This document shows, in pieces, positions 7,390 to 48,578 of a stretch of DNA of 64,000 bases. This DNA is from Sulfitobacter geojensis. GTDB taxonomy: Bacteria > Pseudomonadota > Alphaproteobacteria > Rhodobacterales > Rhodobacteraceae. A model generated the notes under the pieces. It saw only the letters and a list, made by a program, of their open reading frames with translations, searched no databases and had not been told where the DNA came from. The translations under genes and the position numbers were made by a program. The stretch covers positions 2,728,001 to 2,792,000 of the forward strand of contig NZ_JASE01000005.1 of NCBI RefSeq assembly GCF_000622325.1, in the 5' to 3' direction. The stretch's first letter is position 1, and every line of letters begins with the position of its first letter.

Positions 7390-7615
7390 GGCGCGGCTCC
7401 TTTAAAGTACTTGCTTGCACGTGACATCGCATTTTACGCACAGGACACAAGGGGGCGCGGCCAATTGCCCACTTATTAGGCGCGCCGCCCAAGGATCGTC
7501 CAGCGGAACCATGTTCTTGCTGCATGGCAGCATTGCAAAGAAATCCATTGTGCAAGCGCAGCAAAAAGGCGATTGTAGGTACATCGAAGCGACGCAAGTC
7601 CTTCACCAGAAAGAC

Positions 7616-7695
7616 CAGACGCGTTCATCCTCCTCCCGAACAAGTCTGTATTTTAGGCGGCGGTATCTCCTCCCAGATATCGTCGCCGTTTTTTT
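7616..7695 (+). ncRNA. Free-standing cuckoo-type small RNA with two anti-SD loops
   Basis: Hairpin 1 (7616-7648) has stems CAGAC/GTCTG and GTTC/GAAC around the loop ATCCTCCTCCC. Hairpin 2 (7656-7687) has a 13-bp stem with two G-U pairs, the hexaloop CCTCCC, and is followed by seven T residues (7689-7695), so it is an intrinsic terminator. Two CU-rich loops complementary to Shine-Dalgarno sequences, the second in the terminator, is the layout I know from the Rhodobacterales 'cuckoo' RNA family. The 5' end is unknown. It lies 200 bases upstream of a DUF1127 gene on the same strand. Confidence 0.8.
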
Positions 7696-7894
7696 ATCCA
7701 AATCACCGCTGCACCCCACCTGCCGCTTCATGCAGGTGAACTGTTTCTTTATCTATTACAGTGTATTGACCCGACGTCCCCTATGCAGAAACCGCATAGC
7801 GGCATTGTCGCCATGTCCGTTGCGCGGGGCCAGATAGGGTCTATGTACCCCTCAACGAAACGTAACGATTTACAAATTTAGACGAGGCGCCCGA
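7696..7894 (+). promoter_or_regulatory. Promoter region of the DUF1127/CcsR-like locus with a perfect inverted repeat
   Basis: No gene is visible here. CTATGC (7781-7786) and GCATAG (7794-7799) form a perfect inverted repeat with a seven-base spacer, ten bases after TTGACC (7766-7771). The stretch CTCAACGAAACGTAACGATTTACAAATTT just before the gene may hold an RpoH-type promoter, since related loci are heat-shock sigma controlled, but no clean -35/-10 pair is seen. An AT-rich ACAAATTTA precedes the GACGAGGCG ribosome site. Confidence 0.4.
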
Positions 7895-8116
7895 ATGGCA
7901 TATTTGACATCATCATCCGCAACCGGCACATCTTTTGGCATGCGTGCAACCGCAGCATTTCAGAACATGGTCGCCAGCTACAAACAGCACCGCCTGTACC
8001 GCGAGACCTTCAACGAGCTGAGCGCGCTCAGCAACCGTGAACTCGCCGATCTGGGTCTGCACCGCTCGAACCTGCACCAGATTGCACGGGAATCAGCGCA
8101 GACTGCACAGCGCTAA
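7895..8116 (+). CDS. DUF1127 protein (CcaF1/RSP_6037-like)
   Basis: A 73-residue basic protein with a C-terminal DUF1127 domain (about residues 29-62: YRETFNELSALSNRELADLG then LHRSNL). The N-terminal third is Ser/Ala/Thr-rich. In Rhodobacter sphaeroides the equivalent protein is encoded directly upstream of four CcsR RNAs in one stress-induced transcript and acts as a small RNA-binding protein. The same arrangement is present here, with the first hairpin starting only six bases after the stop codon. By analogy it should influence maturation or turnover of those RNAs. Confidence 0.93.
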   Translation: MAYLTSSSATGTSFGMRATAAFQNMVASYKQHRLYRETFNELSALSNRELADLGLHRSNLHQIARESAQTAQR

Positions 8117-8121
8117 GAGAT

Positions 8122-8295
8122 CCTGCCGCGCCACGCCTCCCCGTGGTGCTGCAGGTCACGCCGGCCGCAGCAACATCTCCTCCCTGACGTTGCAGCCCCG
8201 CCGCGTGACAAGACCCGAAGCATGATCCTCCCATCAGATTTCGGGCCTAACCAGAACAGCCGCACCTTCCTCCCAAGGTGCGGCTGCTTCTTTTT
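8122..8295 (+). ncRNA. CcsR1-4-like array: four hairpins, each with a CCTCCC hexaloop
   Basis: Four consecutive hairpins follow the DUF1127 stop. H1 8122-8155: CCTGC/GCAGG plus GCGCCACG/CGTGGTGC. H2 8170-8193: GCAAC/GTTGC with an inner TC/GA. H3 8214-8245: CCCGAA/TTCGGG plus TGAT/ATCA. H4 8258-8285: 11-bp perfect stem AGCCGCACCTT/AAGGTGCGGCT. The stems are unrelated in sequence but every apical loop contains CCTCCC, which is anti-Shine-Dalgarno. Number, loop and position match CcsR1-4 of Rhodobacter sphaeroides, which are processed from the DUF1127 transcript and act in the oxidative and heat stress response. The boundaries between individual RNAs are inferred. Confidence 0.88.
8258..8295 (+). 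terminator. Intrinsic terminator ending the CcsR-like array
   Basis: The fourth hairpin has an 11-bp perfect stem with loop CCTCCC, followed by GCTTCTTTTT. It would terminate the DUF1127-RNA transcript and at the same time form the last small RNA. Confidence 0.88.
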
Positions 8296-48353: not shown

Positions 48354-48393
48354 ATAAAAAACCCCAGACGCGGTCAAGCGAAAGGGGGCTTTC
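48354..48393 (-). terminator. Riboswitch-controlled terminator of metZ
   Basis: On the metZ strand AAAGCCCC is followed 20 bases later by GGGGTTTTTTA. The 5' arm region can alternatively pair GGTCA with TGACC, which would suit an antiterminator switch with the preceding SAM-II aptamer. Confidence 0.6.
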
Positions 48394-48400
48394 ATCCTGA

Positions 48401-48452
48401 CCTTTTAGCAGATTGTTTAACGTGGCCCGCAATCCGGTAACAAATCACCACA
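48401..48452 (-). promoter_or_regulatory. SAM-II riboswitch aptamer
   Basis: On the metZ strand the sequence contains the ordered conserved elements GGTGATTT, TTACCGGATTGC, the P1 partner GCCAC, GTTAAACAA and GCTAAAA, with P1 formed by GTGG and CCAC. This matches the SAM-II (metA-type) consensus of alphaproteobacteria, including the 3' GCTAAAA that forms the pseudoknot. It lies 80 bases upstream of metZ, a known SAM-II target. Confidence 0.92.
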
Positions 48453-48578
48453 GCGTTCAGTTACGCCTGTCACGCGGTTTCGTCAATCCGCGACCTGACA
48501 CAGCGGTACGATTTCGCCGCCCCATGCCAAAAGCGCGTGCCGATTGAGGAACAGGCGAAACGCGCAAGACCGCAGCAT

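Follow-up and report, generated by a model that had tools for sequence, protein, structure and literature searches.

What is a row of hairpins with nearly identical loops doing immediately behind a small DUF1127 gene in Sulfitobacter geojensis? We addressed this question in a window of 64 kb (the whole stretch of DNA analyzed, C5:2728001-2792000) taken from the 4.23 Mb, 5-contig genome of this species. The gene encodes a 73-aa protein of the family that also includes CcaF1 (7895-8116, plus strand; PF06568, 47.6 bits against a cut-off of 23.3) and is followed on the same strand by four single hairpins spaced 42-48 nt apart, hereafter array B. Hairpins 1 (8123-8154) and 3 (8214-8245) display an exact CCTCCC hexaloop at 8136-8141 and 8227-8232, respectively. 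Hairpin 2 (8170-8193) is the core of a longer outer stem and carries an 8-nt loop, TCCTCCCT, that holds TCCTCCC at 8178-8184. Hairpin 4 (8257-8286), with its hexaloop at 8269-8274, runs into a T-rich tail and together with it forms an intrinsic terminator (8257-8295). Folding left CCTCCC unpaired in all four apical loops, and the segment 8100-8310 (211 nt) reached -94.8 kcal/mol (z = -6.97), an energy matched by 0 of 200 shuffled sequences. The initial annotation had placed four hairpins at 8122-8295 and read the last of them as an intrinsic terminator, and we recovered both. It had also given all four the same CCTCCC hexaloop, which is exact in hairpins 1, 3 and 4 but not in hairpin 2, where the word sits unpaired in the larger loop.

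The annotation made no mention of a second array. Array A lies upstream of the gene on the plus strand and consists of two hairpins, the first (7616-7648) with the full motif CCTCCTCCC in its loop at 7629-7637 and the second (7656-7687) with a CCTCCC hexaloop at 7669-7674 and a T run that completes an intrinsic terminator (7656-7697). Six CCTCCC loops in two arrays therefore surround one DUF1127 gene. CCUCCC is present in 6/6 loops, UCCUCCC in 5/6 and the full CCUCCUCCC motif in 1/6, in array A. Between array A and the gene, a third terminator-like hairpin without a CCTCCC loop was found at 7717-7738 (plus strand). The word itself is not in excess: TCCTCCC was observed 6 times against 7.09 expected, and genome-wide CTCCTCCC showed no enrichment, with 33 sites compared to 51 for the reversed word. 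Its arrangement is a different matter. Of the nine plus-strand CCTCCC words in the window, six begin in a span of 638 bp, a cluster that uniform placement reproduced in 0 of 200000 trials, and all six occupy the loops of hairpins with an energy of -8 kcal/mol or lower, as opposed to 3/10 (plus strand) and 0/4 (minus strand) for the reversed control word CCCTCC. A mere surplus of the word CCTCCC can thus be ruled out as the source of the loops.

We compared the locus across 110 DUF1127 entries, 108 of them distinct (L061 is identical to L032, and L062 to L039), of which 33 (31 distinct) were from Sulfitobacter and 77 carried other labels. A match was obtained in 35 genomes, of which the 30 best supplied loci (G004, G005, G010, G033 and G034 were left out), one further genome (G006) having no match to the locus, and 80 of 112 loci were kept from the other collection. 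The initial annotation had stated that its reading would fall if relatives lacked the CCTCCC loops. The comparison did not bear this out: at least one CCTCCC hairpin loop was present within 700 nt downstream of the gene in 107 of the 110 entries listed and two or more in 105, as compared to 17 and 5 for the reversed word, and of the three entries lacking them (L075, L079 and L092) two had less than 230 nt of sequence left. In most Sulfitobacter loci CCTCCC occurs four times at intervals of about 43 nt, deviating loci having between 1 and 5 words, and among the 77 entries listed for other labels the loop number varies from 0 to 14, often in pairs. Two loci, L093 and L139, carry 14 CCTCCC loops behind a single DUF1127 gene. 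One record (L085) titled Nocardioides marinus shows a typical Rhodobacteraceae Mrp-DUF1127-array-UvrD locus, and its assembly has probably been mislabelled or contaminated. Upstream of the gene, loops within 800 nt were confined almost entirely to one genus, being found in 33/33 Sulfitobacter entries (31 distinct) versus 2/77 others, each with a single loop, and array A therefore looks like an addition in the genus Sulfitobacter.

The stems of both arrays differ by position and covary among relatives. For array B, 84.1% of cells were paired across 27 of the 30 genus loci (L047, L048 and L050, with fewer loops, were excluded), and covariation reached 0.436 versus 0.212 after shuffling and 0.10-0.16 for slid pairings. 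Array A, assessed in 25 of the 30 loci (L035, L036, L037, L041 and L060 fell outside the limits of the analysis), was 90.5% paired with a covariation of 0.344 versus 0.201 and 0.06-0.13, respectively, its number of further pair types being matched in 41 of 500 shuffles. Unlike stems that covary around constant loops had been taken in the annotation as a sign of selection for loop display, an argument that these data sustain.

Are these arrays members of a known RNA family? At cut-off, an Rfam scan of the window matched neither CcsR1 nor ar14. The only match at that level was a SAM_alpha riboswitch (RF00521, 62.5 bits) at 48385-48461 on the minus strand. The covariance search with the CcsR1 model (RF02791) that the annotation had suggested gave at best 20.2 bits over array B (8224-8292) and 18.0 bits at 7611-7691, far under the gathering score of 65.3, and ar14/NfeR1 (RF02344) gave 34.2 bits at 7596-7691 and 26.7 bits at 8160-8291 against a gathering score of 58.8. 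A CcsR1 unit, as modelled, is 83 nt long and consists of two hairpins that each carry CCUCCUCCC. Array A does have two hairpins, with the full motif in one of them, whereas array B is made of single hairpins without it, and for this reason we did not file the arrays under RF02791. A one-to-one copy of CcsR1-4 is likewise ruled out, since four single hairpins scoring 20.2 rather than 65.3 bits stand in place of four two-hairpin units. Such a tandem does exist elsewhere: L142 comprises four CcsR1 units of 104.1, 65.6, 65.3 and 64.3 bits. As for the cuckoo RNA family, it is defined by 2-4 adjacent hairpins, a range into which both array A (two) and array B (four) fall, but the CCUCCUCCC motif expected in every hairpin loop occurs here in a single one.

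Array B sits directly 3' of the DUF1127 gene between the same neighbors as in loci of the ccaF1-CcsR type. The window holds both an Mrp and a UvrD gene, which were found in 57/110 and 87/110 of the entries listed, respectively, over flanks of unequal length. CcsR1 matches at E<=0.001, a level not free of chance hits (1/14 control genomes matched), were obtained in 120 of 149 family genomes and in none of the sequence of the S. geojensis genome; they exceeded the cut-off in 8. All 8 of these loci combine an Mrp-type gene, an operator (see below), a DUF1127 gene and a CCTCCC array, as does the window. We inspected two loci below the cut-off: L149 has Mrp, operator and DUF1127, and L150 has UvrD and loops with none of those three. 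The initial annotation had described the locus as a copy of the Rhodobacter sphaeroides CcsR1-4 arrangement; it is indeed a locus of the CcsR/ccaF1 type by place and gene order, yet in unit structure and score it is neither a copy nor a member of RF02791.

Both arrays are preceded by a shared sequence element that resembles a LysR-type operator. Putative operator A (7510-7535, plus strand) lies before array A and putative operator B (7782-7807, plus strand) before the DUF1127 gene. In aligned upstream regions the element takes the fullest form ATGC-N7-GCAT(A/G)nCnGCATTG about 100-200 nt before the gene, with a second copy in Sulfitobacter about 370 nt before the gene, preceding array A. It was found in 30/31 Sulfitobacter gene promoters, 30/31 array-A promoters and 72/77 gene promoters of other genera, whereas the reversed motif was found in 0, and 0/77 loci of other genera had the second copy. 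Promoter features follow each operator. Before array A, a second conserved element, TTGTGCA-N3-GCAGCA (7548-7563, plus strand), occupies the -35 region and the -10 region is indistinct; before the gene, a promoter-like TTGCGC-N16-TATGTA (7820-7847, plus strand) shows the conserved columns TTG and TA-n-A-T-A. A scan with the sigma-70 consensus matched neither promoter region in the window. In R. sphaeroides, ccaF1-CcsR is reported to be transcribed from an RpoHI/RpoHII promoter (PMC10253847).

On the opposite strand, these operators resemble the 15-nt box of the Brucella regulator VtlR, CAATGCAGCCATGCA, and VtlR is reported to control three DUF1127 genes in addition to AbcR2 (PMC12595884). Operator A matches the box at 14/15 positions (7521-7535 on the minus strand, CAATGCTGCCATGCA) and is the sole genome site with one mismatch or fewer; allowing two mismatches yields 16 sites versus 1 for the reversed control. 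Operator B matches at 12/15 positions (7793-7807, minus strand), and its three mismatches are a level met by chance within the window. Operator B also contains TGCA-N6-GCAT, described as the LsrB motif of the NfeR1 promoter (PMC10746234), and this motif occurs in 30/31, 14/31 and 74/77 of the three promoter sets in the order given above, the reversed motif in 0. The stricter VtlR consensus GCAT-N3-TG-N3-T (PMC7486931) is absent from most of them (present in 4/31, 8/31 and 13/77, same order), which lowers our trust in the main reading given below.

We then looked for the putative regulator. The vtlR/lsrB gene is described as adjoining trxB (PMC7486931, PMC11975290), and a LysR gene was found in that position in 19 of 29 alphaproteobacterial trxB loci (the loci covered came from 29 of the 100 other genomes with a match). 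In the S. geojensis genome no LysR gene was found beside trxB, and identification by synteny thus failed for this species. A profile built from 16 of the 19 trxB-adjacent LysR neighbors located the predicted orthologue elsewhere, at C5:2566372-2567235 and away from trxB, with 365.9 bits as compared to 178.1 for the next gene. It groups with the VtlR/LsrB clade with a support of 98/97, this clade being named by trxB synteny and not by a characterized protein. The profile matched in 96 of 100 family genomes, which, given a clade assignment by synteny, disagrees with the statement that LsrB is apparently unique to Rhizobiales (PMC11975290).

Another factor could nevertheless bind these operators, the chief candidate being the polyhydroxybutyrate (PHB) regulator PhaR. 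The operators are rich in TGC, CTGC-N3-GCAG coincides with the operator in 28/30 array-A, 8/30 Sulfitobacter gene and 48/72 other gene promoters, and similar tandem repeats lie between phaC-like and phasin-like genes. However, YGCRNYGCR, reported as the PhaR palindrome of Sinorhizobium meliloti (PMC12542648), was found only in 3/31 and 8/77 gene promoters and in 5/31 array-A regions, and most gene promoters keep ATGC-N7-GCAT together with its TTG flank. We therefore regard PhaR, or another factor in place of a VtlR/LsrB-type LysR protein, as unlikely.

PhaR-like repeats also occur at a second DUF1127 locus of the same genome (L190; C5:119500-125500, near 122-124 kb). Here a divergent LysR gene is followed by tandem TGCA-N2-GCAGCA repeats, a DUF1127 gene, a small ORF of 88 aa and then CCTCCC words, of which, upon folding, one forms a loop and one does not. 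The locus is partly conserved in the genus, with its type of LysR gene in 10/20 and its DUF1127 gene (DUF1127b) in 13/20 fetched regions. The L190 repeats fit YGCRNYGCR, as do 14/14 hand-chosen strings of the second-locus/phaP type versus 0/3 of the window type, a comparison that is partly circular, since A or G at the discriminating position is already required by the definition of the window motif. The LysR gene of L190 falls in a separate clade and has no match in the 110 first-locus entries listed, and a role for it as regulator of the window operators was not supported. Given its PhaR-like repeats and the different LysR clade, the control of L190 is treated here as presumably separate from that of the window. 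A single motif uniting the two loci was rejected as well, for the pattern in question mixes the window type with the second-locus/phaP type. This pattern also matched three other regions (L234, L238 and L239), in which tandem TGCA-N2-GCAGCA repeats lie between phaC-like and phasin-like genes beside a phaR-like gene, and one site (L240) that has neither DUF1127 nor loops. In L229 and L233, CCTCCC loops come after a LysR gene and tandem repeats, and no DUF1127 match lies in between.

Having described the arrays and their putative control, we turned to what the loops may recognize. The best pairing partner of a UCCUCCC loop is GGGAGGA. There are 60 sites of the form GGGAGGA-N3-8-ATG in the genome; all were read, and 53 open an ORF of at least 60 aa while 7 open none. 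Solute-binding proteins account for 25 of the 53 (Pfam; DctP, TctC, Peripla_BP, SBP_bac_1 and NMT1 types and phosphonate-binding), as compared to 0/25 behind the control site AAGGAGA-N3-8-ATG (Fisher p = 5.8e-6; the first 30 of 87 control sites were taken, 4 without an ORF of 60 aa and 1 duplicate leaving 25). The annotation had named no target for the loops; the mRNAs of solute-binding proteins are now candidates, although, with the enrichment coming from one genome and one control site of which 30/87 instances were read, it may reflect a preference of solute-binding genes in general for such start sites. A dehydrogenase E1 component and a P-II protein are also encoded behind GGGAGGA sites (L353 and L346, respectively). 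The pyruvate dehydrogenase complex is reportedly modulated by CcsR RNAs (PMC8625941). In Sinorhizobium, the anti-Shine-Dalgarno (aSD) loops of NfeR1 are described as silencing mRNAs at the start site, and the two targets tested with reporters were periplasmic components of ABC transporters (PMC10746234).

Such loops might instead act as a general brake, many aSD copies covering strong ribosome-binding sites under stress without any special class of target. The loops do match the aSD core, which in the tail of 16S rRNA is CCUCC, and a locus can carry up to 14 copies. The loop-complementary start sites are nonetheless skewed to solute-binding proteins in the proportions just given, and GGGAGGA is unlike the canonical AAGGAGG-type site. 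On this evidence an indiscriminate brake seems quite unlikely.

The positions of operators and terminators suggest how the two arrays would be transcribed. Most likely, array A (7616-7697) is a short RNA in its own right, with an operator, a promoter and a terminator to itself, and array B shares a single transcript with the DUF1127 gene (7895-8295). Alternatively, the DUF1127 transcript could start at operator A and read through a regulated terminator, which would make array A its leader or attenuator. In 33/33 Sulfitobacter entries array A has the orientation of the gene and lies 210-280 nt upstream of it, a placement that would suit a leader. Against it, a second operator and promoter-like columns intervene between array A and the gene, and other genera have operator B without array A, which makes this alternative distinctly improbable. 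Slightly less probable still is that the hairpins are 3' UTR stabilizers and terminators whose common loop binds a protein (the DUF1127 protein or Hfq), the RNA then acting by sequestering protein or in autoregulation and without base pairing: CcaF1 is reported to bind RNA and to affect CcsR maturation (PMC10253847) and 2/6 hairpins are terminators, but, judged by operator and terminator positions, array A appears to lie outside the DUF1127 transcript, and published relatives are described as working through aSD seeds (PMC10746234).

Overall, we consider it reasonably probable that the window contains a two-array, LysR-switched locus of anti-Shine-Dalgarno RNAs of the cuckoo type that curbs the synthesis of solute-binding proteins. 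This reading builds on the observed hairpins, their covariation and conservation, synteny, the operators, the presence of the regulator gene and the solute-binding enrichment; we infer transcription, processing, the pairing mechanism and regulator binding from published relatives. On expression in Ruegeria pomeroyi, the main text of PMC4809877 speaks neither for nor against this reading. A VtlR/LsrB-type LysR regulator would likely activate both transcripts by binding operators A and B. Processing, probably by RNase E aided by the DUF1127 protein as published for ccaF1-CcsR, would release a single hairpin RNA or a small number of them from the 3' part of the longer transcript. The stems would merely present the loops, and base pairing of UCCUCCC/CCUCCC loops with GGGAGGA ribosome-binding sites would prevent translation, chiefly of periplasmic solute-binding proteins.

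More tentatively, and with somewhat less than even confidence, this may extend across Rhodobacteraceae: a VtlR/LsrB-type LysR protein would command an operon of DUF1127 and an aSD array, with GGGAGGA as the "address" that sets solute-binding protein synthesis; CcsR and NfeR1/AbcR would be offshoots of a single ancient regulon for nutrient uptake; and Sulfitobacter would have doubled it with a second, separately controlled array. The shared operator type, the regulator gene (96/100 family genomes) and the target class would tie the work on CcsR/CcaF1 and RpoH in Rhodobacter to that on NfeR1, AbcR and VtlR/LsrB in rhizobia, which the cited accounts keep separate. It would also yield an easily tested rule, with GGGAGGA at the start site as the mark of a target, by which marine heterotrophs could tune many uptake systems together, and the regulatory targets of CcsR-like arrays become directly testable. 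Loci of this kind are known. As far as our literature search shows, novelty lies in the array upstream of the gene, the use of single hairpins, the proposed connection between operators and regulator and the candidate class of targets. In the titles and abstract openings covered by that search, none linked CcsR-type arrays with VtlR/LsrB, which does not prove that such a report is absent.

Among known systems, the locus is most readily compared with ccaF1-CcsR1-4 of R. sphaeroides (the "CIN1" arrangement), where a DUF1127 gene is likewise followed by CCTCCC hairpins with a terminator last, and its neighbors and operator are those of the loci scoring above the CcsR1 cut-off. Unlike ccaF1-CcsR1-4, it has four single hairpins, a shorter loop motif and an extra array upstream of the gene. 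With alpha-r14/NfeR1 of Sinorhizobium and the cuckoo family it shares adjacent hairpins of unlike stems and an unpaired aSD motif of the CCUCCUCCC type. It differs from NfeR1/ar14 in reaching 34.2 of 58.8 bits, in showing the full 9-nt motif in 1/6 loops and in its linkage to DUF1127. The VtlR/LsrB regulon of Rhizobiales differs from the predicted regulatory link proposed here in that the regulator gene of the window's genome is not beside trxB, and to our knowledge AbcR is not a CCUCCC array. A LysR gene of the same clade is nevertheless present in S. geojensis, the window operators resemble the VtlR box, and, as in NfeR1, a TGCA-N6-GCAT LsrB box lies upstream (PMC10746234).
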